From Lachnospiraceae bacterium (GTDB taxonomy: Bacteria > Bacillota > Clostridia > Lachnospirales > Lachnospiraceae), in NCBI GenBank assembly GCA_021199475.1, contig JAJQHZ010000013.1, positions 1 to 64,000 on the forward strand: a stretch of 64,000 bases of DNA, given 5' to 3'. The position numbers and the translations under genes were made by a program. Below are positions 7,147 through 64,000 of the stretch, piece by piece (position 1 is the stretch's first letter; the number at the start of each line of letters is the position of its first letter). A model generated the notes under the pieces. The model saw only the letters and a program-made list of their open reading frames with translations, did no database searches and had not been told where the DNA came from.

Positions 7147-8214
7147 CTACAAAAGGTTTGCCAGCACTTTAGAAAACTCTCTGGCCGCATCCCCATTCAT
7201 ATGGCCGTCATAATCCGTATAATCCTCAATTTCATGAGAAAACTCAAAATAATAATCTGTATTGAAGTTCAGGCAGGCGACTCCTTTTTCTGCAAAAAAC
7301 GATTCCAGATAATCATACGCTTCCATATAATTATCCCACCAGGTACCAAGAGCTGCCGCCGGAATCGGTGTAATCACCGCTACAAACTCAATCTCATTCT
7401 CCGCACAGAGATCAATGGTTTTTTCAATATATTCCATATTCTCATCCACCACCGCGGATTCGGTGAAGACTGCCGTGTCCTCGCTAAGCTGGAGCGTGGA
7501 AGTATCCACCGGATAGCGCTCAATAAATCCGCTCTCATGGTATTCCTGCGAATCGCTCTTCAGGCTTTCCACACTGTAATCACCCGTAAGCTTGCGCGTC
7601 AGCGTCTCAGCGACCATGGGCAGTTCATAAGAGAGCGAATACTCATACCACGGAAACAGCAGCGTGCGGAAATTCGTTTCCGCAATGGCGTCAAAAAAGT
7701 ACTCAACTTTGGCCAGCGACAGCGGAAACTCATGGTAAAACAGAAGATAATTATTTCCCTCTTCCTTTTCCGTCACGATATAACCCGGTGAAACCTCATA
7801 GATAATTCTTGTTGGATTCTGCTTCTCTATCGCCAGGCGTGTCATATAGTAAACATCAATCGCATACTCTCCTCCGACACAGGCATTGTGCGCACTTCTC
7901 CCGGTAATCCCCTCCATCGAATCCGGGTCAATTCCCATCTTTCCGTGAGAGGTTCCTACGATAATATCGTCGTACTGTGTGGTACTGATCGCATGGATGT
8001 CATTGCGCATAAATGTACAGGGATACAGGGCAAGATCCAACCCGCACAAAAGCAGCACAAAGACCGCTGCGGTAAGCAGGATTTTCCACCATGTCAGGCG
8101 ACGCCCGGCCGCCTGATTCTCTTTCGTCTCTGAATCCCGGGGAAGCTTCGTCACAGCAGCCTCCTGCGTCCCCCCGCTCCCGGTTTTCTTCTGATTTTCT
8201 TCAAAACTGAGCAT
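7147..8214 (-). CDS. Membrane-anchored SGNH-like protein (DltD-like position)
   Basis: About 355 residues: a charged N-terminal tail, one membrane segment (KILLTAAVFVLLLCGLDL), then an extracytoplasmic domain. GTSHGKMGIDP resembles the Gly-x-Ser nucleophile block of SGNH/DltD/DHHW proteins, and DYDGHMNGDAAREF near the end resembles the Asp-x-x-His block. Start at 8214 is chosen because GAAAGG precedes it; the reading frame is open to 8274, but this start overlaps the MBOAT stop by only 14 bp, suggesting translational coupling. It likely takes the last step of acyl transfer to an envelope polymer. Sequence similarity to true DltD is limited. Confidence 0.7.
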   Translation of the reverse strand: MLSFEENQKKTGSGGTQEAAVTKLPRDSETKENQAAGRRLTWWKILLTAAVFVLLLCGLDLALYPCTFMRNDIHAISTTQYDDIIVGTSHGKMGIDPDSMEGITGRSAHNACVGGEYAIDVYYMTRLAIEKQNPTRIIYEVSPGYIVTEKEEGNNYLLFYHEFPLSLAKVEYFFDAIAETNFRTLLFPWYEYSLSYELPMVAETLTRKLTGDYSVESLKSDSQEYHESGFIERYPVDTSTLQLSEDTAVFTESAVVDENMEYIEKTIDLCAENEIEFVAVITPIPAAALGTWWDNYMEAYDYLESFFAEKGVACLNFNTDYYFEFSHEIEDYTDYDGHMNGDAAREFSKVLANLL

Positions 8215-46457: not shown

Positions 46458-46700
46458 CTGACAGCCTCCCATTCTTTTAGAAACATATCGATGTTTCAAG
46501 TCATGCCCCCGTAGGGGCAACTACCCTACCCTGGATCTATGTATTTACATTTGACGCCTTTTTTTAAAGATCGCCCCTATAGCAGGCAAACTCCAAATAC
46601 TATTCGATATCTATTTTGCTTCTCCATTTTCCGTAACGCTTTTTAAGCTTCTTACACTTCTACGCGGACATTGGTCGTATCAACCAGTTATTATCTGTCT

Positions 46701-48911
46701 CTATTCCCTTCTTTTCCGCCATACCGCTCCCGCCGCAAGCAAGATTACCACCGCCGCGAGCATCACCGCCAGATAACGTCCGAGCGGTGTCTCGTCGCCG
46801 GTCTGTACGGAGGTCGCCGTTGTCTCGTCTGTGCCGCCGGAGCTGCTGCCGGAGGTCGTGGTGCCGTTTTCTTCGGTTTCATCCGGCTCAAACGTATTCG
46901 TAATCGTTACGGTCTTCTCGGTGTTTGTCTGGGACAGCTTCACGGATTCCTTATCGATGGAAATCGTGAAGTCATGCGCAGAGGTATTCGTCAGCGGAGT
47001 ACCGCTGCTGTCAGTCTCAGCCACGTAATAGGTCGCGCTGGTGCCGGAGCCTGTACCGGCATTCAGCTCAACGGTATAGCTGAAGCTGCTGTTTCCGCCC
47101 ATAGCAAGCTCAATGACGTCGCTTGCCGGCTCGTTAAGCGCGGAATCAGAGAAAACTCTTGCATAGAATGTGTCGTCCGTGTCATAAGCCTCGCTGCCGC
47201 GGATGGTTTTCTTCGTGATGGTCAGGTAGCCGACGTAGTAGTACCCGCTCGGAAGCTCGTAAAATACATTCTTAAACGTAATGGTACCGTCCGCGTTCTT
47301 TTTGGACAGCTTCACCGAGGCCCCATCCGGATAATCCGGCGCGTAGACAACGCCGTCCGACGTCATCCCGCTTGTAAGCACCTCGCCATACTCGTCCGTC
47401 TCCGCAACATAATAGCTCGTTTCGAGATCCAGATGCTCAAATGTCACAGAGCTGCTTCCGGTATTGGTAAATGTAATGGTCTTCACGCCGGAAACACGGG
47501 TCGCGCACGTCTCATCGGAGAACAGCGCGACGTAGAAACTCGCGCTCTCAGCCATCGCCGCAGAACCGTTCTGAAGCTTAAGCTCCTTCGAGACTGTAAG
47601 CGAGCCCTCGTCTGCCGCTGAATCAGAGCTGTCCTTTGCCGTATCCGTCGGAACGGCCGGATCCACCATCGTCACAGTATTCTGCGTGCCTTCCGCCTCA
47701 CTCACGGTAAACATCACATCCGCCGTATATTTGTAGCCGTCCGGCTCAGTCACCTCATCCAGATAATATGTCCCGGCCGGAAGTCCATACAAAATATCCG
47801 TCCCCGCAGTCGTCGTCAGACCATATTTTGCCGTCCCGTCCTCCTTGTGAATCACATTGCCGTCCGCATCCTTGATTACCAGCTTCGCACCGGCCACCGC
47901 CGCACCGGCCTCGTCCACCTTGTTGATGGTCACCTGTGTGCGCGGATTCACTGCCGATACCGTCTGTACATCCCCGGAAGCCGCCGAATAAACGCCGTTT
48001 GCCTCCGCCACCGTACCGGCCGCGCTGATGGTAAACGTCACCACGGCATAGCTGTCTACATAGCCTTCCGGGTTCTCTGTCTCCACCAGACGAAATTCCC
48101 CAGTCGGAAGCCCTGTCACTACCACCTGGCCATATGCACTTGTCTTTAAATCCTTTGCAAATTCCTTCCAGTAATAAAACCCCGTGTCATCCGTCCCGGA
48201 CTCCGCATCCAAAGGCACCTCTGACTCACTGTCCGCATAAACCTTTTGCTGCAGGACAAAGACCGCGCCCTCGATCAAATCCCCGGCGTCGTCCGTTTTG
48301 GTCAGGATCACCGCGCCGCCCGGGAAAGAATACTTCAGCGCAATTGTCACATCATAAATCCAGCCCTGCCCGCTGTCTGCACCGCTGTACGGCAGCGGAA
48401 TCAGCGTCGGCTGTGCCTCCAGATATTCCGTGCCGCCCGTCTGCGCGATCAGGTAAAGCCCCAGAGGAAGACTGTCAAACTTCACCGAGCCGCTCGCATC
48501 CGCAGTGACTGTGCTGATAATATAATTCTGAGCAGAACCACCTGACGTGCTGCCCGCAGAAGCGCTGCCGCCGGAGCTCAGTGTCTCCGCGTAAGCCGCA
48601 AGTGCCTGCGCCGCCGTCTGTGCCTCAGAGGAATTGTTCAGGTCGGAAATCTCCACCCCGCTCTGTGCAAAGATGTCCGTGAAAATAAAGCTGCCATTTT
48701 CATAATCACCCACCTTGTAAAGTGTCAGCTCAATCCCAGACGCGCTATCCGACAGCTGAATCTCCACCTTACCCGTCGTCTGCTCCGCGGACGCATGAAC
48801 CGGCGCCGCCGCCCCGGCAAGCACCAGGACAGAAAGCATCAGAGCAAAAAGCACCAGCATTCCTGCAGAAGCAAACAACGGTTTTAAACGCCAACACACC
48901 TTCCTCTTCAC
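46701..48911 (-). CDS. Sortase-anchored surface protein with SpaA/Cna_B-type domains
   Basis: 736 residues from GTG 48911 (AAAGGAGAGG 7 nt upstream). Signal peptide ending VHASAEQ, then several isopeptide-type Ig domains: an N-terminal pilin-like domain (KVEIQLSDSASGIELTLYKV), SpaA-like units (GAVFVLQQ, GEFRLVETENPEGYV; GAKLVIKD, GTYYLDEVTEPDGY) and two repeats with KELKLQNG and VFYELPSGYYY. The C-terminal sorting signal is SVQTGDETPL, a hydrophobic segment and RKRRE, not LPXTG. It lies 79 bp behind the sortase gene and may be a minor or anchoring pilus subunit. Confidence 0.85.
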   Translation of the reverse strand: MKRKVCWRLKPLFASAGMLVLFALMLSVLVLAGAAAPVHASAEQTTGKVEIQLSDSASGIELTLYKVGDYENGSFIFTDIFAQSGVEISDLNNSSEAQTAAQALAAYAETLSSGGSASAGSTSGGSAQNYIISTVTADASGSVKFDSLPLGLYLIAQTGGTEYLEAQPTLIPLPYSGADSGQGWIYDVTIALKYSFPGGAVILTKTDDAGDLIEGAVFVLQQKVYADSESEVPLDAESGTDDTGFYYWKEFAKDLKTSAYGQVVVTGLPTGEFRLVETENPEGYVDSYAVVTFTISAAGTVAEANGVYSAASGDVQTVSAVNPRTQVTINKVDEAGAAVAGAKLVIKDADGNVIHKEDGTAKYGLTTTAGTDILYGLPAGTYYLDEVTEPDGYKYTADVMFTVSEAEGTQNTVTMVDPAVPTDTAKDSSDSAADEGSLTVSKELKLQNGSAAMAESASFYVALFSDETCATRVSGVKTITFTNTGSSSVTFEHLDLETSYYVAETDEYGEVLTSGMTSDGVVYAPDYPDGASVKLSKKNADGTITFKNVFYELPSGYYYVGYLTITKKTIRGSEAYDTDDTFYARVFSDSALNEPASDVIELAMGGNSSFSYTVELNAGTGSGTSATYYVAETDSSGTPLTNTSAHDFTISIDKESVKLSQTNTEKTVTITNTFEPDETEENGTTTSGSSSGGTDETTATSVQTGDETPLGRYLAVMLAAVVILLAAGAVWRKRRE

Positions 48912-48990
48912 GGCAAAACCTCTCCTTTCCAAAATCCCCCTAATGAATCATCAACCAAATGGCCAAATATCCGCTATCCTTGATGACAGC

Positions 48991-49875
48991 TCATCGTTTA
49001 TTTCTCTTTCTCCTGCGTTCCGGCAGGAACAGGATCAGTAAAACAATAATCATCAGCACAATCCCGACCGCTACCGTCCCGTACCAGAGAATCTTTTCCA
49101 CCGGAATCTTCTGCTTCGTCTCCGTATCCGCCGGTGCCTGAACCGAAACGACCTCCGGAGAAAATTCCACACGGGTACCGCGCACCAGCAGCCGATGCGA
49201 ATTCACGCCGTAAGGTGTGCACGTCAGCAGCGTCACATAATCCTCACCCTCGACAATCCGGATATCGTCCGTCTCGTCCGGAAGCACCACCTTAATCTGA
49301 GCCACCTCATATGCCAGAATCCGGTTCAGCACATGGATGTAAAACATATCGCCCTCTTCCAGCTGGTCCAGATCGGTAAACAGCTTCGCCGCCGGAAGGC
49401 CCGTATGTCCGGAGAGAACCGCATGCGTCGATTCGCCTCCCACCGGAAGCGAGGTCTCCGGCATATGCCCGATGCCCTTTTGCAGGACCTCATCCTCCAC
49501 GCCATGGTAAATCGGCAGATACACGCCAATTTTCGGAATCTCCACATATCCGATTGCGTCCGTCAGGGCAAGCAGACTCTCATAATCCGCCACCGAATCC
49601 GAATCTCCGTTGCCGCTCAACGCAGCGTTGTATTCCGACGCCGCCTCCAGCATCGCATCCAGCTCCGAAGTATCCTGCTCCTCCAGCGCCGAATTGTAGC
49701 TGGCAATCTCCACACTCGCCGTGTATTCACAAATCCAGTTGCTCAGGAGCGGATATCCCATCGTCCCCACTCCCGCTGCCAGTATCAGAAAAATAACCAA
49801 CAGCGGAAGCCTGTCCCGGATCCTGTGATGCCGCTTTTTCTTTGTCTGCGCCTGCCCTGTCTCATTCTCACTCAT
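48991..49875 (-). CDS. Class C sortase (1)
   Basis: 294 residues with membrane segments at both ends, as in pilus-polymerising sortases. Catalytic residues: His in SGHTGLPAAKLF, Cys in VTLLTCTPYG and Arg in NSHRLLVRG. The N-terminal segment before the catalytic core may hold the lid typical of class C. It would join pilin lysines to the cleaved sorting motif. Second of two sortases in a row. Confidence 0.93.
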   Translation of the reverse strand: MSENETGQAQTKKKRHHRIRDRLPLLVIFLILAAGVGTMGYPLLSNWICEYTASVEIASYNSALEEQDTSELDAMLEAASEYNAALSGNGDSDSVADYESLLALTDAIGYVEIPKIGVYLPIYHGVEDEVLQKGIGHMPETSLPVGGESTHAVLSGHTGLPAAKLFTDLDQLEEGDMFYIHVLNRILAYEVAQIKVVLPDETDDIRIVEGEDYVTLLTCTPYGVNSHRLLVRGTRVEFSPEVVSVQAPADTETKQKIPVEKILWYGTVAVGIVLMIIVLLILFLPERRRKRNKR

Positions 49876-50024
49876 CTGTTCCCTGTCCTGTCTGCTCCTG
49901 CCCGATCCGCTTCCGTTCGATCCATCTGCTCCTGTACCCGACTGTTCTGATGAGGGGCGGCCTTCATTCGATCCGCTTATCCAATCCGATTCCGCCCGGC
50001 TCTTCTGTGTTTCATCCGTTTCCG

Positions 50025-50915
50025 TCAGATTCTTTTTTCCGCCTGATCCGTTTTCACTGGGTTTGCTTCCGCCGGATTCACCGGATTCCCCGCATATTTT
50101 TCCTGCATCCTGCGATGATAAATATAAGCAATGATCACAGCCAGAATCGCCGCCAGTACAATCACCGCGATCACCAGCAGCTGCCGCTTCATCGCTGCGG
50201 ACAGGCCCCTCGTCACCGTCTGCGGGCCGACCGACTCATCGTCATCCTCCTCGGGGATGTATTCCGTCCGTTCTCCGCGCACCAGCAGCCGGTGGCTGTT
50301 AATTCCATACGGCGTACAGGTCACTAGCGTCACCAGATCCCGCCCCGGCTCAATCTCCAGCAAAGACGCATCGTCCGGCTCGACCACCTCGACATCCGCC
50401 ACCTCATACGCCAGAATCTCTCCCAGCACATGAATGTAAAACAGATCACCGATCTCCATCTGGTCCAGATTCGAGAGCAGCTCCGCCCCCGGCAGGCCTG
50501 TATGCCCGGAAATCCCGCTGTTCGTATTCTCCCCGCCCACCGGCAGAGATGTATTTTCAATATATCCGCAGCCCTTCTGCAGCACCTCATCCGAAGTCCC
50601 GTAATAGACCGGCAGATACACGCTGATAGACGGAATATCCAGATAGCAGATCACCCCGTCATTCACATTCAGGCACTTATCCTCATCCTCAGCATTCGTC
50701 CCGTAATACAAATGCAGGTTAAACTGCCGCGCCATCTCCAGACGCTCACTCGCGTCCGGCTCCATCGTCTCATCCGCGACCTGCGCCTCATAATCCGCAA
50801 TCGTCACCGACGCCGTATTCAGCGTCACATAATTTCCAATCGAGGGATACAGGATAAACCCAACCCCAATCACAAAGATGAGGAAAATCACCCCCATCGG
50901 ATATAATTTCTTCAT
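50025..50915 (-). CDS. Class C sortase (2)
   Basis: 296 residues, N-terminal membrane segment (VIFLIFVIGVGFILYPSI), catalytic SGHTGLPGAELL, VTLVTCTPYG and NSHRLLVRG, C-terminal membrane segment, then a hydrophilic tail rich in Asn, Pro and Glu. It starts 8 bp after the stop of the Mrr-like nuclease gene. The two sortases are clearly paralogous but diverged, which suggests different substrates. Confidence 0.93.
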   Translation of the reverse strand: MKKLYPMGVIFLIFVIGVGFILYPSIGNYVTLNTASVTIADYEAQVADETMEPDASERLEMARQFNLHLYYGTNAEDEDKCLNVNDGVICYLDIPSISVYLPVYYGTSDEVLQKGCGYIENTSLPVGGENTNSGISGHTGLPGAELLSNLDQMEIGDLFYIHVLGEILAYEVADVEVVEPDDASLLEIEPGRDLVTLVTCTPYGINSHRLLVRGERTEYIPEEDDDESVGPQTVTRGLSAAMKRQLLVIAVIVLAAILAVIIAYIYHRRMQEKYAGNPVNPAEANPVKTDQAEKRI

Positions 50916-50922
50916 AATTTCT

Positions 50923-51834
50923 TCATGATTTCATCCTGCCAGATGTTTGCACCCTTCCAGTCAAAGCAATCTCAATGCGATTCTCATAGCACTTCCATGT
51001 CGTGTTGCAAGGCAGGTAAGTTCCATCCTCTCGAATCAGGCAAGCAGTCCGATATAACCCTGTGACACCGGATAAATAACATCTGCCCGCATCAATCCTC
51101 AGCATTCTTTCCGGCTGCCCGTCAAAACTGACTTTCAGCGATTCACACTCCGTTCCCACGATCTCCAGAACTGCTCCCGGAATCCGCAAAATTCGCGCAC
51201 GGATATCATTTGCTGTAATTTTACTATTCACTTCCAGAAGAACTTGATCCACGCCTGCCGCAACAGCTGCATCCCCATTTCCATTGTCTTCACTTCCGTC
51301 ATCCAGCCGCCCAGAAACATTCGCAGCTGCCGTCAAAGCATCCATTTCCCTTTTGCTAAATACTGGGTCAAAGACAAAGCCAATCCCTTTATCGATACAA
51401 CTTTCTACCAGCTTCTTCCCATCAATCAACACAATGGGGCGGGTTGGAGCTCCCCTTTCAGCAAAAGCTTTCGTATCCCCGGAAAACTTCCCCGTTGTAA
51501 TAAACATCCCTCTGCTTCCAGATGTCATAACGCCTCTGAGTGCTCTGACATCCGCTATTTTATTCGTGACATCCGGATTGCGAAGCTTTGCCTGCACATA
51601 ATATTCCAAAGCATCTGTCCCATTTGAGCCATCTACCCCATATCGAACCGCTTTCAGATCAATGCCTCCATCTCCCGATTTCTTCGTGACAACCACCTCA
51701 TCCAGCCCTAGTTTCTCCAGATACGGTTTCAGAAAATCTTCAAATGCATAACCATTCTCAAAATAATGATAGAACTCATTAACATAAGCAGCCAACTGCT
51801 CGTCCGTCAATTCCCGGATTTTTCCGTCTGTCAT
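50923..51834 (-). CDS. Mrr-like restriction endonuclease domain protein
   Basis: 303 residues. The N-terminal half has the PD-(D/E)XK core of the Mrr_cat family: GDGGIDLKAV and YYVQAKLRNP (Asp and Gln-x-Lys), then RGMFITTGKFSGDTKAFAE and IVLIDGKKLVE. The C-terminal half is unrecognised. Such enzymes cut modified or foreign DNA. It sits unexpectedly inside the pilus locus, between decayed sequence and the sortases, with a start context overlapping the sortase leader. Confidence 0.8.
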   Translation of the reverse strand: MTDGKIRELTDEQLAAYVNEFYHYFENGYAFEDFLKPYLEKLGLDEVVVTKKSGDGGIDLKAVRYGVDGSNGTDALEYYVQAKLRNPDVTNKIADVRALRGVMTSGSRGMFITTGKFSGDTKAFAERGAPTRPIVLIDGKKLVESCIDKGIGFVFDPVFSKREMDALTAAANVSGRLDDGSEDNGNGDAAVAAGVDQVLLEVNSKITANDIRARILRIPGAVLEIVGTECESLKVSFDGQPERMLRIDAGRCYLSGVTGLYRTACLIREDGTYLPCNTTWKCYENRIEIALTGRVQTSGRMKS

Positions 51835-51857
51835 AAATCAGTATCCTCCATGGGCTG

Positions 51858-52313
51858 TCAGGCACTTTCATTTCTTTTACTTTTAAACCAGCCCTCCACT
51901 ATCTCAACACTGACATTCACTGCCTGGGCAATCTGATTCTCATCCATCCCCATCGTGCGAAGATTAAACGCAGTTTCCATTGCTTTCTTCTGTTCTCCTT
52001 CTGCCTTCCCCTGCTCATAAATTCCTTCACTCAAATTGCACATAACATCCATCTCCTCTCTGAATTCCATCTCTGCGGCGATGTGATATTCATTCTCCAA
52101 AATATCGATCCGTTCATTCGGCGTCAGCTGATTAGAAAACAACGCACTCAAAAGCCGATGCAACTCATATTGTTCTCCCCGCTTCGGAAGCTTATTCGGA
52201 ATACCAAGAAGCAGAATGTTTAAAAGATCAAGCTTCCCTTTCCATTTGTGATCGCCCAGGATGGAGTCGTCCGTAAGGTGAACGTAATCCCAAATACACT
52301 CATCCATATTCAT
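51858..52313 (-). pseudogene. C-terminal remnant of an Rpn/PD-(D/E)XK transposase-like protein
   Basis: 151 residues matching only the C-terminal part of Rpn-family proteins: helical segments with RGEQYELHRLLSALFSNQ, and the SEGIYEQGKAEGEQKKA repeat-like stretch before a terminal helix-turn-helix-like segment (MDENQIAQAVNVSVEIVEGW). The N-terminal nuclease core is missing, so the gene is probably truncated. Upstream, no matching frame is seen. Confidence 0.65.
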
Positions 52314-53217
52314 ACAAACCCAGATAGAGTAAACGCGCTTTAAGTCATTGAAGTTCTTTCCTGTAAAGTCACTCTTTGAGCTTTTCTGTCTCCTGACAGG
52401 CAGATATCCTGAACTCTATACTGATAGATTTACTTTATCACAGGATTTTCCCTGCCACAAGTACAAAGTATCCGAATTTCTTCCTGTCATACGGGCATAT
52501 TACCATATAAAAGATTTTATCGCAACATTTTATTTATTATTATTTTATTAAAATAGTTTAATCCTTATATTGTATTTATCAGTTCTAAAAATGCCTCAAT
52601 CTCTTCACAACCCGGGTCTCTACATGTGGTCTGACCCCCGGCCTCTTAGAATCAATCCGCTAATTTTCAAAAAACAGCTTGTAATATCGGAAAATCCGTG
52701 TTATAGTCGAGTTATAAAAAAGTGCTACCCGTACAGCATGACGGTTAGCTCCCTATTGTTTGGTAAATAAAAATAACCGCACTAGTTGGTGGCTAGGCGG
52801 TTATTTTTGTGTCTTGTTGCTACCAATCGTGTAGCCAAGTCCAAATGAGGAATCTCTATATGTAATCAGAGGATCTCAGGGTCTCCGCTTTGCTTCGGTC
52901 GTTGCTAAGCGAGCGCCACTGGCGCTCAGCAACCCTGTTGTCAGGAAAATAACCGCCACTACCGCCTGAGTAGCGCCACCATAATTCTACAATTTAAGCC
53001 ATAATATGTCCACTGTTTCTTTACATAATATATTTTTCTCTATGCATATTTACCATTTTTCACAATGGCACCGAGCACCTGCTTCCACAAGTGCTCAGCA
53101 GATGTTCTAATGCCCTGCCAAATGAAGATTGTTAACCATAATTCGCCCTATACTCATAAAAGTGTCCGGCATCCGTTTTCCATGTCAGGAGGGCCATTAT
53201 ATTCTTATCTTTTCCAA
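52314..53217. other. Gene-poor region with decayed elements
   Basis: About 900 bp without a credible full gene. It contains a promoter-peptide-terminator unit at 52680-52810, a strong hairpin at 52901-52933 (GTTGCT, GAGCGCC with GGCGCTC, AGCAAC), and the 20-mer repeat at 52882-52901 on the minus strand. AAAATAACCGCCACT, an echo of the terminator stem, occurs at about 52946. It looks like a junk yard of former mobile sequences. Confidence 0.6.
52679..52810 (+). other. Promoter, 10-codon reading frame and terminator: possible small-toxin remnant
   Basis: TTGTAA and TATAGT with 17-bp spacing (about 52679-52707) are followed by ATG ACG GTT AGC and a stop after ten codons (MTVSSLLFGK). A bidirectional terminator then pairs AAAAATAACCGC with GCGGTTATTTTT (about 52767-52808). 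Promoter, tiny hydrophobic frame and shared terminator resemble TxpA-like type I toxin units, but the peptide is too short to be active. It could equally be a small RNA. Confidence 0.35.
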
Positions 53218-53916
53218 TCACTTTAAAGTAATTACAACCGATTCCTTCTGTCCGGTTGTATCATTGATTACGGGGATTTCAATAGCAAAACCAGGGCCTC
53301 CTTTAATAGTAACCTTCTTCCCATTTTTTAAAAATTCGAATTTCAACCAGCCCGCTCTTCCATAATACAGGTAATTCTCATAAGGCTCCTCTCCAATCGT
53401 CCAGCCATCTTTGAGCACTACCTTAATCTTCGATTTCTTACCGCTGAATTTCGAGTATTTAAGCGTAACAGATGCCCTTGTTTTAAACTTTGAAGCAGAC
53501 ACGGATACGCTTCCAATTTTAAAAGAAGAAATCGGATTCGTATATTTTTTCACAGTAACCGTTGTCGTATAAGTCGTTCCTTTATACTTGAATGAGACAT
53601 TCGCCTCGCCCGCTTTTTTCGCGATAAGATACAACTGCGTAATGGTTGATCCACCGCCAGTTGTTACGCTTTTGGAAGGCTTCACAATAGACTCATCGCT
53701 GGATTTTAAATTCGTAATTTTCCCATTGATTGTTGTGAACCATTGTTTATTAAAGCTGGTTCCGGTAATATCGCTTTTATCCTTGGCTGAATATTTTGTA
53801 ATCGTAACCGTACTCGGAATATCCAGTGCGGCAGCCGAAGCCGAAGCAGGCAAAATATTAAGCGTGACTACAAGAGCAATCACGAATGATACTAACTTCT
53901 CACAAATTCTTTTCAT
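53218..53916 (-). CDS. Secreted Ig-like protein
   Basis: 232 residues with a signal peptide (MKRICEKLVSFVIALVV, cleavage near SASAAAL). The first half resembles a bacterial Ig-like fold (ITNLKSSDESIVKPSK, GEANVSFKYKGTTYTTTVTV). The second half is beta-rich without a family I know, ending abruptly at VVITLK with no sorting signal. It follows the two pilin genes on the same strand and could be a secreted accessory protein of the surface. Confidence 0.7.
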   Translation of the reverse strand: MKRICEKLVSFVIALVVTLNILPASASAAALDIPSTVTITKYSAKDKSDITGTSFNKQWFTTINGKITNLKSSDESIVKPSKSVTTGGGSTITQLYLIAKKAGEANVSFKYKGTTYTTTVTVKKYTNPISSFKIGSVSVSASKFKTRASVTLKYSKFSGKKSKIKVVLKDGWTIGEEPYENYLYYGRAGWLKFEFLKNGKKVTIKGGPGFAIEIPVINDTTGQKESVVITLK

Positions 53917-53979
53917 TTGAAACCTCCCACCATTCGAACCGTTCCGCCATTTCTAAATGAGCTTCCTATTCGATGCTCG

Positions 53980-54023
53980 GCAAGCCGCACGATGCTGTAT
54001 CACACGGCATCCATGCGGCTTGC
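53980..54023 (-). terminator. Hairpin behind pilin 2
   Basis: GCAAGCCGCA (53980-53989) pairs with TGCGGCTTGC (54014-54023), with GATGC/GCATC inside. No long T-run follows; probable message-end stem. Confidence 0.5.
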
Positions 54024-54153
54024 GGTTGTTATTTACGTTAAGGAGTGCTTAATAAAATCTTCTCTTTCTCTACATGGGCCTGATCCAGAGACTCTGCAGC
54101 TTCTGATTAAAACCCGTTTTGCATTATTCTTTCTTTTTCATCCCGCCAACAGC

Positions 54154-55668
54154 TTACGCCTGTCTTCTCTGCTTCTTCGTGTAAGCGATGAACATGAACG
54201 CCGCAAGGATGACCAGAGCAAGGCCGCCTAAGGTGAAGAGCGTCGTACCAATGCCACCGGTTCCAGGAAGAATAGTTCCCGCCTTGTTCGTAATAGTTTT
54301 TGCCCCTTCGTTACCGCCTATTTTCCAGGTAACCTTATAAGAATCCTTAGTATCACTATTTCCATTCGTTGTTATCTGATCCCCAGATGATTCCAAGGTA
54401 ATAGAACTGCTGGATTCTACAGTCAAGTCTAACAGCAAAGGTGTCGCGTCAATACTATAGCCTGTAGGAGCCACAGTCTCGACTGCATAATAAATTCCCT
54501 CATCCAATCCTGTCAATTTTCCAGAACCATCAGCTCCTGTAGTAATTGTTCCAACAGATATTACATTGATGTTTACACCATCTACTTCAATTGTAGTAGA
54601 ACCGGTTGCTGCTTCATCCAATTTTTTATAAATAGTAAACTGTGCACCGGAAAGTGTTGTGGTTACATCTCCTTCCTTTGCCTTTAAAATCTCGATAACA
54701 CCAGAATACGTGATTACAGAATCTTCTTTCGTGTCAGAGGTAGATCCTGTATCCCAGTTATTTGTATACTTAAGTGTAGCAGAGTTCGGATTACCATCTG
54801 AGCCAATACTAGCAGAATCATTCAATTCAGCGGTTAAAACTACAACAACCGCATCGCCCATATGTGCTTTAATAAATAATCCAGTAAATGAAATAGTGAC
54901 TACTCCATCTTTTTCTTCAACCGAATAGGTATCTGCAGCTTCACTATATGTTGTCCCACCTACTTTCACACTGGTTATTGATCCATAAGTCAAGCCAGAA
55001 GACATGGTATCAGTTATAGTAAATGTCAACTTGTCTGCATTAGCATCACTTGAATAGGTTGGGATAGCTGTGTCAAGTTGATAGGTAATTGTATCTCCAA
55101 CAGCAGCGACGTTTGCATCAACTAATGTATCCGTCGTCCCTTCAAGAATAATCTTTTTGGTAAGGTCAGGGGTTGAATTTTTCAGATTAACTGCCACATC
55201 TTTATCCTCTACATTAATTAAGCAATATTTTGTCGCCGTAGATGGATCAGAATCGTCATGTGCGGTTTCAACAAGGAGATAATATCCCGATGGAACATTT
55301 GAAACACTCCCAGATGTAACACCACTCGCAAACGGACTATCGCTTCCAGTCAAAGCTTTTAATGAAACGGCCAAAGCAGCTGCTTCATCTGTATTACTAC
55401 CATAAGCAACTATCGTTGCCAGTGTCGAATCATTAATTACAGAAGAATAAGCACTATTAACTTTTATATTAGTATAAACTGTTTGGCCATTCAAAGTAGA
55501 AACATCATAAGTAGCAATCTGATATAAGCTGTAAGTGTTCTTCTCTCCACCGTTAATTGTTATTGTGTATTCAGCTGCCATTACCGTCGTCGTCATCGCG
55601 AATACCATAATCGCCGTCATTGCAAGTGCCAGCCATCTTCCGACTGACTTTCTGATATTGTTTTTCAT
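54154..55668 (-). CDS. LPGTG pilin subunit (2), isopeptide fimbrial type
   Basis: 504 residues from ATG 55668. Signal peptide (NIRKSVGRWLALAMTAIMVF, cleavage near TVMAAE), an N-terminal domain with TYSLYQIATYDV, then a D2-type isopeptide domain (TPDLTKKIILEG as candidate pilin lysine region, TITDTMSSGLTYGS). A Cna_B/SpaA domain (GAQFTIYKK, GIYYAVETVAPTGYS with an E-box glutamate) follows, then ILPGTGGIGTTLF, a hydrophobic segment and KKQRRQA. This is the layout of a pilus backbone subunit polymerised by class C sortase. Confidence 0.92.
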   Translation of the reverse strand: MKNNIRKSVGRWLALAMTAIMVFAMTTTVMAAEYTITINGGEKNTYSLYQIATYDVSTLNGQTVYTNIKVNSAYSSVINDSTLATIVAYGSNTDEAAALAVSLKALTGSDSPFASGVTSGSVSNVPSGYYLLVETAHDDSDPSTATKYCLINVEDKDVAVNLKNSTPDLTKKIILEGTTDTLVDANVAAVGDTITYQLDTAIPTYSSDANADKLTFTITDTMSSGLTYGSITSVKVGGTTYSEAADTYSVEEKDGVVTISFTGLFIKAHMGDAVVVVLTAELNDSASIGSDGNPNSATLKYTNNWDTGSTSDTKEDSVITYSGVIEILKAKEGDVTTTLSGAQFTIYKKLDEAATGSTTIEVDGVNINVISVGTITTGADGSGKLTGLDEGIYYAVETVAPTGYSIDATPLLLDLTVESSSSITLESSGDQITTNGNSDTKDSYKVTWKIGGNEGAKTITNKAGTILPGTGGIGTTLFTLGGLALVILAAFMFIAYTKKQRRQA

Positions 55669-55948
55669 GCTCTTTTCCTCGCTTTCAAAATGCCATTTTA
55701 ATAAGTTTTGTTTTCCGTTCGTCCTGTGCCGGTTTCTCACAATGGTACTGTTCAATCGTGTCTGCACGTCAGAAACTTTTATCGCCGACCGTTCCAGTTT
55801 GAATCTTTCGTTCTTCATCTGGTTCGATTGACTTTCGGAAAACAAACCGTTCAATGCCATTTTGCCTCACTCCCGGCCCGGATTAGCGAGCCGGGAAGTG
55901 AACTGTATGAAATGCTTCAGAATCGAGCATTTTGATATAGCATTTTCT

Positions 55949-57620
55949 TTATGCCTGTTTTCTCTGTTTCTTTGTGTAAACGATGAACATTGCCGCTGCA
56001 AGCATTACCAGCGCAAGTCCGCCAAAGGTGAAAAGTGTGGTACCAATACCACCGGTACCCGGAAGATTGGTTCCCTTTTTATTGATAATCGTCTTCTGAG
56101 TTCCATCAGCTGTTTTCCAGGTAACTTTATAGCTGCCTGAGATTGAGGTATTCGCCGCAGCACCATCAGTTGCAGTTGAAGCTTCCGCTACGGAATTTCC
56201 ATCGCCTTTTGTATCAAGCGTCAGGCCGGCACTTTTGGAATCATCAGATGTTGCAATCGTCAGAGACACATCAAACTGTTCTGTTGCAAGGCTGTATCCA
56301 TCCGGCGCATCCGTCTCTTCTGCATAGTAAGTACCCACATCAAGACCGACGACTTTAATTTCACCATTTTTATCAGTCACAAGATCTTGCGTAGCGCCTG
56401 TCACAGTCGAATCTTTTGTATATCTGTAGCTTCCGTCTGTCTGTAATACAAAATAAAGTGAATCGCCTGTTTGACTCCCTTTTCTGATTACAAAGGTTGC
56501 TCCCGGAAGATTCTCATTTGAATCGCTTATTTTCAGGATGTTTAACTCACCAGTGTACGTAATTACTGTGTCTTCGGGTGTCTTATAAGAAGTGCCTTCA
56601 CCATAGTAATCATTTTCGTATTCCAGATGTACAGAGTTCGGGTTACCCGTATCGCCGGTGCTGGCATTTTCATTTAAAGTAGCAACCAAAGTTACCTGAA
56701 CAGATTTGTACGCTTTCACACTTGCCGTTGAAAGTGTAATGGTAATAACCTGGCCACTCTGAGCCACTGCATATTGCCCAGCCGCAGCGGTCTTATCAGT
56801 AGTAATATCTATTGCGGTGGTATTTTGGGATCCGTCCACAGTATAGTTTTCTCCATCCGTCGAAAACTTCACCGATACACTTTTATAATCAAGTCCACTA
56901 CTTAACGTATCAACAATCTGATAAGTAATTGCCTCTGCATCTTCATCATAGTTCGGAATACCGGAAACAATCCGATAGGTTACATCATCTCCGATCGCTA
57001 CTGTATCTGCATCCTCCAGAATCGTATTATCATCAGTACTATGCTCACTCACAATCTTCTTCGTAATCGTCGCCTCAGATGTCTTAATCTCAACAGTTTT
57101 GTCTGCATTTTCCAGCGGCACCAGAAGGTATTGTGTCGACACATACGCATTATTTGTTCCATGGCTTACCTCAACGATCAAATAATAACCAGAAACCAAA
57201 CCTGTACTGATCTTTCCATTCGTCACAGTCGCTACCGACTGAATCGAATTCGTAGAAACCAACTTAACGGCAGATTCTGCTAAAGAAACCGCTGTAGCAT
57301 CAGTAGCATTCAAAATGTCATCTTCCAAATCCGAAAAATCAGATTCTACTTCCATGTTCGTGTATACCGTTTCTGTAGTTTCTTCACCACCCACTTGCGT
57401 GGTTATTGTTTCTACATCGAACGTAGCGAGCCGATATACATTATACGTATTACTGGATATTTCGGCTGTAGATTCACTACTTGAACCTGTCAGAGTGATG
57501 GTATACGTGCTAGAGGAATTACCCCCCCCTCGGATCATCAGCAAGCGCTGTTGTGGCCATTCCAAGCGCCATGATTGCAGCTGACGCCAGTGCGGCTAAT
57601 TTCTTCCATGTTCTTTTCAT
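55949..57620 (-). pseudogene. LPGTG pilin subunit (1), out of frame at a G8 tract; probable phase-variable gene
   Basis: From ATG 57620 (AGGAAAAGGTG upstream) the frame encodes a normal signal peptide, MKRTWKKLAALASA to TTALADD, then Pro-Arg-Gly-Gly and a stop immediately after eight G residues (57522-57529 on the plus strand as C). The remaining pilin, NSSSTYTITLTG onward, lies in the neighbouring frame for about 520 residues. It carries the same domain order as pilin 2 (ATITKKIVSE, GATFVIRKGS, GTYYAEETDAPDGYS, NLPGTGGIGTTLF). Loss of one G, or gain of two, joins both parts. Either a switched-off contingency gene or a homopolymer sequencing error. Confidence 0.88.
57522..57529 (-). repeat. 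Poly-G tract (G8) in the pilin 1 gene
   Basis: Eight consecutive G residues (coding strand) between signal peptide and mature pilin. Tract length decides the frame: seven or ten keep the gene open; eight, as here, stops it. Confidence 0.9.
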
Positions 57621-57656
57621 ACTTTTCACCTTTTCCTCTCTAAAGATTTCCCGGTC

Positions 57657-57805
57657 GCTGCCGGGGTGTTGCTCTGCCCGATGATTTCATTCGTCGGATT
57701 GTTGCTCTGCCCGATTTGTTCTTTCAACGAGATATTGCTCAACCCGATCTTTTCCCTCATCGGGGTATTGCTTCTCCCAGTCTTTTCATTTGCCGGGGTA
57801 TTGCC
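57657..57805. repeat. Tandem repeat of about 35 bp between adhesin and pilin 1 genes
   Basis: Four imperfect units containing TTGCTCTGCCCGAT, a T/C-rich stretch with TTTC and a CGTCGG or ATCGGGG end; several units fold as CCCGAT/ATCGGG hairpins. The rest of 57621-57996 has no gene. Confidence 0.75.
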
Positions 57806-57996
57806 TTAGCCGGGCTCTGGAACTGCCCTTATGCTGTCTGTCGGACGGTAGATTATCGTCCTCTGTCTAATGCGCATCTTTTGCATTCAGCTGCAGGTTC
57901 CGGGAACTATTTTCTGTGAGTAGTTCCTGACACAACTGTTTTCAGTTATTTGCAGCCTTTTGCACTTGTCACGCGATGTCTGGCAGCTCCATAGGA

Positions 57997-60900
57997 TTAA
58001 GAACTGTCTGCCGTTTCTCCTCCTTTCCCAGCGTATTTGTATTTCTTTTTCTTTTTAAAGGCGTAGAGCATCCATGTCGTTGATACCGTCAGGAATGTCA
58101 GCCCTAAGCCATAAAAGACGAGTGGATATTTCGAACCGGTGCCGGGCATTGTAATGCCCTGGCTCTGTTTCGAATTTGTTATTGTGATAGTTCCCGCTTC
58201 AGAAACCGTAACATTTGAGTATGTGCTGCTTATATTGCCTCCATAACTATACTGCACAGAATAATTCTTCACATCCTCATAGCTGTCATAAGTACCGTCA
58301 TTGTTCGTGTCGGTTCCAGCCTGTACAGACACTTCTTCGACAGAATAACTGCCGCCTTTCTCTACCTTCCAATAACAGGTCCAACCATTGTCACTGCTTA
58401 ATACAGTTTCAGAGCCCGTCACCTCGGTGCCGTTATTGTAGAGCTTTACTGTAACCACGTAATCGGCATATTCATCTGCGTCGAAGCTGCTGTCCCACTC
58501 TTTTTTTGCCCGGACCTTTACAATTTCTATTGAATTGGTTACGGTCACTTTCTGAATCATTCCGGATGTTGCATCTGTTTCATATTCATAGGATGCCGAA
58601 TACCCCTCCTTGCCGGATGTTTCAACCACATAGTAATAATATTGGTTCCCTGACGAGTCATACAAATCAAGGTTTGACCACGTATATGACCAGAAGCCGG
58701 TACCGCCAGATGAGGAATTGCCCAGCTTCACAGAGCAGCCATCCACTGCTTCTCCATTCGCTGATAATCTGATTCCACTTCCGGTCTGCATATCCGCTGT
58801 ACTAACTCCGTCCGTGTAAGTAACACTTGATCCTGCGCTCGTTCCTGTACCCGAATAGCCTGATGCGTACGTAACCTTTAATCCGATCTCAATATTTCCC
58901 GCGAGGACTACTGTTTTAGAGCCGCCTGTTGTTCCGTCGCTGAACTCCACACTACTCAGTGCATCTCCCCACGCCGAGAACTGGACATAATAAGTTTTCC
59001 CTAGAATCACATCACTAAATGTATAAGTCCAATCATTGTCTACTGCCAGATTGACCGACTCTAACATATCCCAATCTTCATCGTATAATCCCAGCCAGAT
59101 TCCGCCGTCCCATGTTGTCAGCGGTGCTGACGAGCCACCAGAAGAGTCCAGCCATTCTTTTACATCCACGGTAATACTTCCAGATGCCGGAGCTACCGTA
59201 GAACGGTACAGCTGCATTGTTACGGTGTCATCCGTGTGGCTGCCTGCATCATCCCCCCATTTTTTCTCTACCGATATCTCCGTCGTCTTCTTTGTGTTTG
59301 TGACCGTAATCTCGCCATCATCGCTAAGTGTGCTGTATGTCACATCAAACGTACTCGTGATATCCGTCTCGCTTCCATTTGTAACAGCTGTCTCTACTAC
59401 CGAATAGGTATAGCCAGCTTCGAGATCAGTCCATGATGCCGTCCAGCTGTTATTAGAATCCAAGGTTTTAACAGATCCTGTCTCCGCGCCGTCTTTGCAC
59501 AAAGCCACGCTGACTGCATAATCTGCATATTCACTCTCTGATGAAAATCCGCTCCACTTCTTTTTTACAGTAACTGCTGATGTTTGCTCTGTTGAGTTTT
59601 TAATCTTTATCGACTGTATCGTTCCGCCACTGTAAACGTAAGAGTAATATGCCGTGTATCCATCCGGAACTGCTGTCTCAACAACATAGTAATAATACAG
59701 ATTACCATCCGCATCGTACTTATCCAGGTTACTCCAGGTATTGCTCCAGGAGCCACTTTCATTCAGCGTTACCACATCGCCAACCTTCACCCCGTCTGTC
59801 GCATAGCGTAATCCGCTGCTTGCAGCGAGTACCTCACTGTCGATGCCCGTCGCAGAACCTGTCAAAAGAGGCTCCGCAATTTCATTTGCACTGGCTGCAG
59901 CTGTCTGCACAGAAAATTCCACTGTGGTTCCTGCCACGGTCGAGGTCGCTTCAATCGTCCCTGACTCCAGGTAGGAATCACTATCTTTCACTTTTGCCAG
60001 AGCAGTTTCATTCAGATTAGTAGATATACAGGTATATCCAATCGTATAAGTCTGGTTCGCTGTCAGATTCTCGAATGTGTAACTCCATCCATTTGATTTT
60101 GACAAAGCAGCTGAACCAACTGCATTTCCGTTCCCTGATTCATACAGCGTAAAAACAAAGCTTGCATAGCTGCTGACATTACTGGGAACCAATGGATTTC
60201 CGCTATCATCCACCCATTCAGAAATGTCTACAGTAATGCTTCCCATTACCTTTGGTGCAGTCGTCGAGCGATACAGCTGCACAGTTACTTCCGTAGGTCG
60301 AGTTGCAGAGCCTCCGTCGCTCCACGTTTTGGTAACTGTAATTTCCGTATCCGCCTTCTTGTTTGTGATGATATAATCGCCGCCATCAGTTGCTGCCTGA
60401 CATGCACTTGAATACTCAGTACCGTCGGCCTCATTTTGATAAACAGTAGTATACAGGCCGTCCGTCACCAGTTCTTCTACATAATAGTAACCAACCGGCA
60501 AATCCGTCCACTCATATGACCAGTTATTCGCAGAAGATAAAGTAACTGTCGTCGCCTCATAAGGAGAGCCTGTATCTCCGTTTTCGCTGCCTGTATATAG
60601 CTGTACGATCAGACTTTCTGGGCAATCTGATAATTCCTGTCCGGATGCATCCAGCCACTTCTTTGTGACGGTAATTGATGTCGTCTTCGTATTCGTAATA
60701 ATTAACGATCCATCCACTCCGGTGCTATAGGATATCAGATAACTACTGTCAATGTCAGTTCCGCCCGAATCTGATGTCTTCACAGACAGTTCTTTTACCG
60801 TATAAGTATATCCGCCCTCCAAATCACTCCAGGTATAGCTCCACCCGTCCGCTCCATACGAACCGTCGCTATCTGTCTTATCTTTGTAAGTAGAGTTCAG

Positions 60901-63900
60901 TATGACGGTTTTTCCGGTCGCTTCACCATCTCTGTACAATTCTACTGTTACGTAGTAATCATCATATTCATAAGTGGTATCTCCGCCCTGATTGACCGTA
61001 CTGCTCCAGTCTACCCATTCCTTCGTTACCGTGATGCTTACCGCGTCAGCTTTTCGGTTCGTTACAGTTACAGACTTAATAATACCAGTTTCCGAAATGT
61101 TTCCCCCGGCATCCGTCTCCGTCTCGACTTCATATTCATAAGAAGAAGTATATCCGGGAACATTCTTTTCCACAAAATAGTAATAATACAGATTCCCATT
61201 CGAATCATACTTATCCAGGTTATCCCATGTGTAGGACCATCCGTTCGAATCATACCCATCTTCTGTGCCATAATTCGAGCCAAGGGTTACCGTTCCAAGT
61301 GATGTTGCATCCCATGTATCTCGCATACCATTCGAAACCGACGGCTCATCATTGGAAGAAGTCGTCAATATACTGGTATTCTCTACCAGATTCGCTGTCA
61401 TAGTTCCTTCAAGCAAAGCCGAATTAAGAGAAGCTGTGGTAACCGGATAATCGGAATACGAATAATAACCGATAAAGTCATACGATGCCACATTTCCGCT
61501 GACAGTCACAACTTGATCCATTTCAAGAGAAATACTCAAGCCACTTCCGCTCATAGAATAGCCGTTATAATATGCAAACACATCGCCCTGTGATGTTGGA
61601 ATATCAATATACCCTACCCATCCGCTGGAATAATCAAACTGAATTGAAAATGCATTCCAGGTTGTAAAGCTATAAATAGTAAAATATACAATTAAGCTTT
61701 CATTTGTAAGCGGGACACTTCCTGATGCAGAATTATAATCCCATGCATTCGAACCATCTCTCCATTCTGTGATTCGCATATAAACACGATTATACCCATC
61801 CGCCGGTGCTTCTAAATCTGAGCTCTCTTCCGCCTTTTCTACCAGAGTCGCACTGAAAGCAAATCCATACGCTTCCTGATCTCCTGACACGATTTCGGAT
61901 CCGCTGGTCAATTCTATCGACTGAATTGTATTAGTAGCAGTCGAATCACTTGATGACAATGCCTCGCTGTATATAATCTTATAATACTTTGTTTCCTGAT
62001 TTTTTACGCCTGGCAGGGTAACTGTATATTTCCAGTCATTATCCGCCGACAAGGTTACTTCTGTCTCAGTTCCGCCACTAACCTCGACACCGCTCTGGTC
62101 GCATTCGACCAGTTTAGCCGTCATCCAGCCTCCGTCCGCATCATCGGCCGTGGTATACACTCCTTCACTGGTTTTCCATCTGGAAACCTCGACAGTAATG
62201 TCAATATCCGAATCCGGTATTGTCGGAACATCTTCTGTCAGAACTGCGCTCAATGACAGTACATTTTCAGTGTCTGAAACTCCGGTTACTGTATAGATAT
62301 CACCAGACTTCGAAATGGTTGTCTTATCACCATTCGCAGTCAAGGTATTAATGTCATCACTGTGACTGTAGAGGATTGTATAGGTCTGCTCCGCTCCGTC
62401 GGCCTTATTCGGCACGTACGCTGTCCAGGACATATTAGAGGATGTCAGTGTAGCAGAATCAACCACCTGCCCCCCACTGAAAATTGCCACCCACACCCAG
62501 CTGTCGTCGGCAGCAGCTGAACCGTCCGTCTGACCATCGCTGTAAAACCAGTCGGAAATCTCTACGGTTATCGGATTATAATATCTCTCCGTCAAAACAG
62601 CTGTAAGATCTATCTCCACATCTGTACCGCCGGATGTATCTACCGTAGTAAAAATCTGTGTGTATCCATTCGAGACCGAACTATAGGAAGAGCCGTTTAC
62701 TACACCATCTGTTATACTGTCAATACTGTAAAGCTTCCCCCATCCTGAACCAACCGTATAGAAAACCACATAAGACTGTGAAACACCGGAAGAAGATACT
62801 AATTCAGCATCATCCCATGTAAATGTCCAATTATTTTCAAGGGTCAGAGTATCTCCTTGCTGTGACCAGCCACTGTTTGTATTATTTGCCAATCCAATCC
62901 AGATTCCCGTACCGGTATCAGTTGGCGCCTCCGCTTTTACACCGTCACTATAAACCCAATCAGTAATCTTGACTGTAATCGAGCCTGTTTGAGCCTCATC
63001 CACTGTTGATTTTGAGGAAAGTGTCGCGGTAAGAGATACTGTTTCTCCCGCCCCCGCAGTCGGCCATGTACTGACAAAATCTGCGCTGTCGGTCTGCAAA
63101 GAAGCGATTCCGCCCCAGCACGACGCGTTTATAATATAGCTGCGTGTCTCACCGTTTACTTCTTTTAATACCTCCGATGTCTCCCATGTCCATCCGGTTT
63201 CAGAAGTCAGAATCGTTGATTCAATAAAGTTCCAGTTGCTGTCGTAAATCGCTATCCACATCTGTCCAGTGCCGACATCATTCTCACTGGCCGTCTCTCC
63301 GTCGCTAAAAAGCCAGGTGCTTACATCAACGGTGACGCTTCCATAGGTCGGCTCTGTTTCAGAAGGTACTTCCGTGGTACGGTAAAGCTCCATCACCACA
63401 GTCTCCGGCGTTGTTTCACCTGCTTCTGTCTCCCAGATTTTCTCAACAGTGATCTCCGTAGAATCTTTTTTATTAACGATTGTAATCGTACCTTCAGTAA
63501 CAGAAGCATCCGCAGGATCACTTTCCCCCCAAGATGTCACCAAAGATGTATCTGCATTCTTATAATAAGCCGTATACCCGCTCACGGTCACGTAATCTTC
63601 TTCAACGTAATATGTCCCTGATGGCAAATATGTCCATGTGTAGGACCAGCCGTCCGCAGAATAATATCCCGTATCAGTAGACACGCCTGCATTCGCAGTT
63701 CCTAAAGCGATTTTTTCTGTGTAATATAAGTTCCCTGTCGTAACTTCTGTACCATTTGGATCGGTCACTGTTTCCAGCCGGTAGAGGTTCATATATGCCT
63801 TCACAGAATCCGAAGTAATCTGCTCGGTCTCACCAGCGGCATCCAGCCATTCCTTAGTCACGGAAATGTCTGTCGTAGTTACTGAATTAAGAATCACTTC

Positions 63901-64000
63901 CGATGTACCGCTTACGCTGGAGCGTGTAATCGTATAAGCTGCATTGATGGAATCAGCCTCAGTAATCACTGATCCGACTGTTGTCTCTATCTCTTTAACA
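57997..64000 (-). CDS. Large sortase-anchored adhesin, 5' end beyond the window
   Basis: At least 2000 residues; the frame stays open to position 64000, so start and signal peptide are missing. It consists of many Cna_B-like units (ITVTKEWLD, MELYRTT, WSYTWTYLPSGTYYVEE, ITIVNKK and variants). A second module occurs seven times, beginning near 63340, 62985, 62580, 62200, 61795, 60243 and 59183, with the pattern ITVxVxxW-x-SDG. The C-terminus has the sorting signal TMPGTGSKYP, a hydrophobic segment and KKKKKYKY. It is probably the tip adhesin or a long surface fibre of this pilus locus. Ligand unknown. Confidence 0.9.
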   Translation of the reverse strand, partial: VKEIETTVGSVITEADSINAAYTITRSSVSGTSEVILNSVTTTDISVTKEWLDAAGETEQITSDSVKAYMNLYRLETVTDPNGTEVTTGNLYYTEKIALGTANAGVSTDTGYYSADGWSYTWTYLPSGTYYVEEDYVTVSGYTAYYKNADTSLVTSWGESDPADASVTEGTITIVNKKDSTEITVEKIWETEAGETTPETVVMELYRTTEVPSETEPTYGSVTVDVSTWLFSDGETASENDVGTGQMWIAIYDSNWNFIESTILTSETGWTWETSEVLKEVNGETRSYIINASCWGGIASLQTDSADFVSTWPTAGAGETVSLTATLSSKSTVDEAQTGSITVKITDWVYSDGVKAEAPTDTGTGIWIGLANNTNSGWSQQGDTLTLENNWTFTWDDAELVSSSGVSQSYVVFYTVGSGWGKLYSIDSITDGVVNGSSYSSVSNGYTQIFTTVDTSGGTDVEIDLTAVLTERYYNPITVEISDWFYSDGQTDGSAAADDSWVWVAIFSGGQVVDSATLTSSNMSWTAYVPNKADGAEQTYTILYSHSDDINTLTANGDKTTISKSGDIYTVTGVSDTENVLSLSAVLTEDVPTIPDSDIDITVEVSRWKTSEGVYTTADDADGGWMTAKLVECDQSGVEVSGGTETEVTLSADNDWKYTVTLPGVKNQETKYYKIIYSEALSSSDSTATNTIQSIELTSGSEIVSGDQEAYGFAFSATLVEKAEESSDLEAPADGYNRVYMRITEWRDGSNAWDYNSASGSVPLTNESLIVYFTIYSFTTWNAFSIQFDYSSGWVGYIDIPTSQGDVFAYYNGYSMSGSGLSISLEMDQVVTVSGNVASYDFIGYYSYSDYPVTTASLNSALLEGTMTANLVENTSILTTSSNDEPSVSNGMRDTWDATSLGTVTLGSNYGTEDGYDSNGWSYTWDNLDKYDSNGNLYYYYFVEKNVPGYTSSYEYEVETETDAGGNISETGIIKSVTVTNRKADAVSITVTKEWVDWSSTVNQGGDTTYEYDDYYVTVELYRDGEATGKTVILNSTYKDKTDSDGSYGADGWSYTWSDLEGGYTYTVKELSVKTSDSGGTDIDSSYLISYSTGVDGSLIITNTKTTSITVTKKWLDASGQELSDCPESLIVQLYTGSENGDTGSPYEATTVTLSSANNWSYEWTDLPVGYYYVEELVTDGLYTTVYQNEADGTEYSSACQAATDGGDYIITNKKADTEITVTKTWSDGGSATRPTEVTVQLYRSTTAPKVMGSITVDISEWVDDSGNPLVPSNVSSYASFVFTLYESGNGNAVGSAALSKSNGWSYTFENLTANQTYTIGYTCISTNLNETALAKVKDSDSYLESGTIEATSTVAGTTVEFSVQTAAASANEIAEPLLTGSATGIDSEVLAASSGLRYATDGVKVGDVVTLNESGSWSNTWSNLDKYDADGNLYYYYVVETAVPDGYTAYYSYVYSGGTIQSIKIKNSTEQTSAVTVKKKWSGFSSESEYADYAVSVALCKDGAETGSVKTLDSNNSWTASWTDLEAGYTYSVVETAVTNGSETDITSTFDVTYSTLSDDGEITVTNTKKTTEISVEKKWGDDAGSHTDDTVTMQLYRSTVAPASGSITVDVKEWLDSSGGSSAPLTTWDGGIWLGLYDEDWDMLESVNLAVDNDWTYTFSDVILGKTYYVQFSAWGDALSSVEFSDGTTGGSKTVVLAGNIEIGLKVTYASGYSGTGTSAGSSVTYTDGVSTADMQTGSGIRLSANGEAVDGCSVKLGNSSSGGTGFWSYTWSNLDLYDSSGNQYYYYVVETSGKEGYSASYEYETDATSGMIQKVTVTNSIEIVKVRAKKEWDSSFDADEYADYVVTVKLYNNGTEVTGSETVLSSDNGWTCYWKVEKGGSYSVEEVSVQAGTDTNNDGTYDSYEDVKNYSVQYSYGGNISSTYSNVTVSEAGTITITNSKQSQGITMPGTGSKYPLVFYGLGLTFLTVSTTWMLYAFKKKKKYKYAGKGGETADSS

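Follow-up and report, generated by a model that had tools for sequence, protein, structure and literature searches.

The first shaft pilin of a sortase pilus locus in a Lachnospiraceae genome is very probably a phase-variable (contingency) gene that switches through replication slippage in a run of eight guanines, as judged from its sequence and those of its relatives. Its signal peptide and mature part lie in different frames on the two sides of this G8 run. The run is conserved among orthologues, both frame states occur among species, and the frames downstream of the run are intact. Because relatives keep the run, with some of them in frame and some out of frame, the on/off switch is most likely reversible. 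Lachnospiraceae are common gut commensals, and the source organism is presumably one of them; to our knowledge, the surface variation of Lachnospiraceae has been little studied. The window referred to below is the whole stretch of DNA analysed, comprising the initial 64,000 bases of contig C129 from a genome of 3.80 Mb in 165 contigs.

Structure of the split pilin gene

The gene is read from the minus strand and consists of the following elements.

57621..57641, minus strand: AGAGAGGAAAAGG upstream of the pilin ATG, which we take to be a Shine-Dalgarno-like motif (by eye); relatives have a similar one
57519..57620, minus strand: ORF of 33 codons encoding the signal peptide of the first pilin, with its stop directly past the run
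57522..57529, minus strand: G8 run (C8 on the plus strand) at the boundary of signal peptide and mature pilin
55949..57565, minus strand: mature first pilin in a frame that differs from that of the signal peptide; SpaH/EbpB major pilin with isopeptide D2, SpaA, and LPXTG anchor

The minus-strand ATG at 57620 is the start of MKRTWKKLAALASAAIMALGMATTALADDPRGG, and the signal peptide, which is typical in kind, ends ...TTALADDPRGG. The G8 begins 91 nt past the ATG and is abutted by a TAA at 57521-57519. The mature-pilin frame spans 538 residues when counted from a TTG and 548 residues from stop to stop, the initial residues of the TTG frame being an out-of-frame artefact. These ORFs, together with the 523 open codons past the G8, confirm the preliminary description, which had placed an intact signal peptide and an intact LPGTG pilin in separate frames with the G8 between them. 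Its frame arithmetic was also correct, since eight G's bring the frame to the TAA right after the tract and seven or ten read through; the length of the homopolymer thus determines the reading frame of the first pilin.

The mature part scored 95.7 bits against the SpaH/EbpB major pilin family of NCBIfam (NF033902), a marginal match at a cut-off of 95, and its further Pfam and NCBIfam matches are an isopeptide D2 domain and a SpaA domain. The C terminus consists of LPGTGG, a membrane helix, and the basic tail KKQRKQA. This anchor was recognized by TIGR01167 with 20.0 bits (cut-off 15.9), and its Pfam score (PF00746, 19.7) was slightly below the cut-off of 20. Among solved structures, the closest by sequence are those of Clostridium perfringens CppA (5xcc) and major pilin (6ixy). 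The structure model of the first pilin was modest (mean pLDDT 62.1, pTM 0.52) and was used for a fold search only, in which C. perfringens pilins came out on top with TM-scores of 0.30-0.50. What the window pilin has in common with the SpaH/EbpB major pilins, CppA, and 6ixy is family and fold.

Four 33-nt repeats stand head-to-tail in the gap upstream of the gene (57662-57793), three of them being 70-76% similar to the reference copy. Similar sequence was seen by eye directly upstream of several orthologues.

Organization of the pilus locus

The remaining features of the locus within the window are listed below.

57997..64000, minus strand: giant surface protein with Cna_B repeats, 3' part only, whose frame extends past the window
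54154..55668, minus strand: second pilin of the same family, run-less, with an in-frame signal peptide
50025..50915, minus strand: class C (pilus) sortase
48991..49875, minus strand: class C (pilus) sortase
46701..48932, minus strand: SpaA-domain surface protein, below the NF033902 cut-off

In the order of transcription, the giant Cna_B protein is followed by the first pilin with its run, the run-less second pilin, a small protein whose start is signal-like, two ORFs, the two class C sortases, and the SpaA protein. The sortases scored 226.5 and 262.7 bits against a cut-off of 160. The giant Cna_B-repeat protein is probably the tip adhesin and the SpaA-domain protein probably a minor pilin. An Rfam search of 45000-64000 returned no match.

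The second pilin matches NF033902 with 117.4 bits (cut-off 95) and has its own Shine-Dalgarno-like site (by eye) and signal peptide. As the preliminary description had stated for this paralogue, it lacks a tract: the signal peptide is in frame and contains neither a G-run nor a C-run of at least six.

We propose that DNA polymerase would slip within the run of the first pilin in a strain and thereby gain or lose G's. With signal peptide and mature part in one shared frame, the first pilin would be expressed, exported, and then assembled into a polymer by the class C sortases; with the frames apart, translation would end within a few codons of the run. Off cells would probably still form a shaft from the second pilin unless polarity silences it. 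Since this second pilin lacks a run and has a start region of its own, the probable outcome of switching would be a pilus of changed shaft composition.

The run in orthologues of the first pilin

We searched 47 genomes of the genus, the source genome included, with the compared genomes being one per species; the 13 related titled loci are all metagenome assemblies. Orthologues (family A) were defined by the top profile score together with a signal peptide like MKRTLKKLAALAS, and adjacent second pilins and weaker matches were set apart. Nine orthologues were found in 7 of the 47 genomes, one each in the source genome, G013, G012, G032, and G456 and two each in G026 and G458. The seven public ones share 44-53% protein identity with the window's pilin, and pairwise dS within the family ranges from 1.09 to saturation, with dN of 0.16-0.61.

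All nine orthologues keep the run where the signal peptide ends, as G8 in six, G7 in two, and G6 followed by CGG in one. The preliminary description had proposed to count tract lengths in related strains or metagenomes; both length and frame vary among related species. Five orthologues are in frame and four are out, with the frame from the ATG staying open for 523-556 codons in five and for 32-38 in four. The offsets between the two frames are 0 in five, +1 in two, and +2 in two, so that shifts in both directions are represented. The mature frame is without a stop in all eight orthologues tested (the ninth ends at a contig end), and dN is lower than dS for the off alleles also. Outside the run, GGG makes up 27 of 346 glycine codons in these eight genes, and a pure G-run is therefore not explained by codon habit.

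The run is thus kept while its surroundings drift, and the off alleles still look constrained. As these alleles may have been on recently, which is what switching predicts, the constraint cannot date the off state. On and off alleles both occur in nature, with the coding part intact when off, in a comparison drawn between species only. The variation in length and frame among species and the intact mature frame in the eight tested orthologues support the phase variation of the pilin that had been put forward in the preliminary description.

Homologues without a run

Second pilins lying beside family A were all run-less with the signal peptide in frame (7 of 7 examined out of eight found, G032:C6:16194 being left out). 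A wider homologue search listed 47 non-own places, of which 29 were examined, 28 in other genera and one in the same genus. None of these 29 has a run at the signal peptide, and in all of them a signal-like stretch, recognized by a crude pattern, is in frame; in L083 a G8 occurs deeper within the gene, and in L098 a G6 lies far downstream. Likewise, 23 of 24 other same-genus homologues are in frame without a run of at least six G's at the start. The exception, L060 (G007:C47:25250-26281), is broken at a mid-gene G6 run, with its first half sitting upstream in another frame. This break may reflect faulty assembly, a mutation, or a further switch. Since it falls at an ordinary mid-gene G6, G-runs can break frames in these assemblies without a switch design, and a frame broken at a G-run is accordingly a weaker argument for design.

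In all, 7 of 13 pilins with a run (family A and family B, the latter described below) are out of frame, as compared with 1 of the 66 homologues whose signal region lacks a run. L060 was counted as off in this control set, and two loci were not double counted. Fisher's test gave p = 4e-6, or about 2e-4 without the source genome, values that serve as a guide only because the sequences are related. The table behind the second value counted 60 genes in frame, as against 59 on recount. The 65 run-less homologues in frame, along with the occurrence of on and off runs in another pilin and in a giant adhesin, lend further support to phase variation.

Runs in a second pilus locus

Contig C37 carries a second pilus locus, whose first pilin defines family B; this pilin is followed by a run-less one and later, past other genes, by a sortase. 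The source-genome member (L123) scored 69.6 against NF033902, below the cut-off of 95, and has SpaA and anchor domains. Among the 12 genes of this family (E <= 1e-20), four carry a run inside the signal peptide, and the other eight are run-less and in frame. The run is G9 and off in the source genome, G460, and G456, and G7 and on in G457. The three off alleles are all at offset +1, a pattern that by itself is also compatible with a fixed frameshift.

Family C is the giant adhesin gene directly upstream of the family B pilin. It comprises eight genes, seven of which are readable, the unreadable gene of G027 standing outside the seven. Six of the seven have a run between a Thr/Glu-rich N terminus and the first conserved domain; four are off (G9 in the source genome, G8 in G026 and G460, and G6 in G013) and two are on (G7 in G457 and in G456, where the start lies past the contig end). 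The gene of G007 is run-less and in frame. Families B and C were found via out-of-frame runs of the source genome, and their off counts are biased for this reason; without the source genome, the off counts are 3 of 8 for family A, 2 of 3 for family B, and 3 of 5 for family C.

On balance, we lean toward the view that the genus carries a poly-G "phasome" in which two pilus loci, a giant tip adhesin, and possibly other large surface proteins would switch independently. In both pilus loci of the source genome, a switching pilin would be paired with a locked-on neighbour, so that shaft composition would vary and not only piliation. The run lies past the signal peptide in family A and inside it in family B, whereas in family C it separates the N-terminal spacer from the first conserved domain. 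Under the phasome reading, these differing positions imply a repeated origin, separate from bifidobacteria.

Number and position of G-runs in the genome

The source genome contains 12 distinct runs of at least eight G's, and 10-19 are expected from window-trained Markov models of order 2 to 5 (69 at order 1). An excess of G-runs was accordingly rejected as evidence. For runs of at least nine G's, eight distinct ones were found versus 1.7-3.8 expected at order 2-5 and 16.7 at order 1. What goes beyond chance is the position and conservation of the run and not the number of runs of at least eight G's. Five of the 12, including the window's, disrupt the reading frame in the N-terminal region of large genes whose start is signal-like. 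Assuming that such places make up 1-5% of both strands, the chance of finding five of 12 runs in them is 7e-8 to 2e-4.

A family-wide pattern, ATGAAA-N48..78-G8, occurred in 55 of 394 genomes, with about 40 for the reversed control (hand count), which is little difference. As the pattern misses the window's own gene, it is a poor probe, and the family-wide claim was dropped. A MutS match was present in 45 of the 47 genus genomes, with 1019 bits in the source genome when neighbouring pieces were included (cut-off 641.7). Runs of 6-9 are short for hypermutability, and with MutS present, slippage may be slow. A scan of viral_contigs found no relative.

Alternative explanations

The preliminary description had named sequencing error as the main alternative, according to which the G-run is misread or misassembled and the gene is actually on in the organism. 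Homopolymers are prone to error, the titled relatives are metagenome assemblies, and the break of L060 at an ordinary G6 is possibly such an error. However, an error of this kind leaves unexplained why a G-run stands at one point in all nine orthologues, why out-of-frame genes are so unevenly divided between pilins with and homologues without a run, and why a like pattern recurs in two further gene families. Given the conserved run and its two states, a one-off error is a poor account of the feature and we consider it improbable; the part of the concern that stands is that the G8 length in the single source assembly could be wrong. Inactivation of the first pilin as a pseudogene, with the second pilin substituted for it, would fit the out-of-frame gene of the source assembly. 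Two very large surface genes of the source genome that also carry an out-of-frame G-run have later in-frame stops mid-gene (L122 at 7364-7366, TAA; L124 at 3649-3651, TAG), most L122 orthologues being open for about 3,700-5,050 codons. With 523 more open codons in the pilin, dN below dS in the off alleles, and a break located exactly within the conserved run, a pseudogene nevertheless appears very unlikely.

G-runs can also slip in transcription or translation. Programmed recoding of this sort would yield a fixed share of full-length pilin from unchanged DNA; such slippage on G-runs is established, with work on it cited in the Bifidobacterium breve paper (PMC9187656), and the three off alleles of the second locus share the offset +1. 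Yet a fixed-direction frameshift requires a constant offset, whereas family A has 0, +1, and +2, and five of its nine orthologues require no frameshift at all. Recoding, which could coexist with DNA slippage, is thus an unlikely explanation. The slippage switch that we favour has itself a compatible version, in which the off state silences the downstream operon through polarity, so that the run governs piliation itself rather than composition. If polarity reached the second pilin, the run would be an on/off switch of the whole pilus. In B. breve, transcription ends are dispersed downstream of the premature stop (PMC9187656), and a simple scan of the minus strand found no terminator-like site in 53900-58200. 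Against it stands that a Shine-Dalgarno-like site and a signal peptide of its own were seen for the second pilin, and we regard this version as possible but doubtful.

Relation to known systems

The mechanism is already known from B. breve and appears here in a Lachnospiraceae genus, at several loci. In B. breve UCC2003, G-run slippage was measured at the sortase pilus loci bbr_0113 and bbr_1889 (PMC9187656). The bbr_0113 run in culture was 37% G11, 59% G12, and 3% G10, and the in-frame G10 was reported to be ten times more frequent in mice; in-frame constructs gave pilus-like structures, and several Bifidobacterium species have G-runs in pilus clusters (PMC9187656). The two systems are alike in that a G-run splits the first pilin of a sortase cluster, with the Sec signal in one frame and the LPXTG part in another, and that one genome holds two such loci. 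The B. breve runs are G10-G11 and their length varies within the population, whereas the Lachnospiraceae runs are G6-G9 and are compared here between species; the Lachnospiraceae system further differs in that the split pilin has a run-less neighbour and that a giant adhesin also carries a run. Pil1 of Streptococcus gallolyticus (PMC3894217) is likewise a Gram-positive pilus with a slipping repeat as its switch, but there GCAGA repeats in a leader-peptide gene, outside the pilin gene, act via transcription attenuation. Among the matches listed in the open-licence literature, poly-G switching of pili in Lachnospiraceae or Clostridia was not found, nor was the pairing with a run-less neighbour or a multi-locus set.

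If our reading is true, metagenome reads spanning G-runs could reveal cell-to-cell pilus diversity in Lachnospiraceae, and some seemingly broken genes would be switches. It would also suggest that Actinobacteria and Firmicutes independently evolved a G-run in the first pilin gene of a sortase locus, which would point to common gut selection.

Other G-runs

Two further runs were tried as conserved switches and rejected. The run on C160 (L125) has no counterpart in the G032 orthologue, which is 82% identical, nor in L179, L197, or L180. For the run on C123 (L124), 10 other loci were examined out of 13 places found, and only G020 has a run near that point (L243: G7, in frame); L251, L247, and L252 carry G-runs far upstream.

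Runs tens of bases long starting from G007:C105:11479 and G456:C59:28079 are possibly sequencing artefacts. A G10 (L126 608-617, G000:C142) and a G8 (L131 2475-2482, G000:C44) have glycosyltransferase-like neighbours by eye. Around the L126 run, the reading frames seem by eye to be broken a second time, and the frame downstream of it matched no Pfam or NCBIfam family. In L127 (6082-6092, G000:C146), a G11 lies about 480 bases upstream of a third group of pilin and sortase-like genes. A G9 in L130 (2479-2487, G000:C37:15478) stands directly upstream of TGTTATAAT, about 220 bases ahead of where a gene for a large surface protein probably starts, and could be a promoter-spacer run; a consensus scan found no promoter match overlapping this run or that at C146:6082. 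Finally, a G10 in L128 (2255-2264, G000:C20) lies between a Shine-Dalgarno-like AAGGAGG and the region ahead of a copper-ATPase-like gene, as seen by eye.
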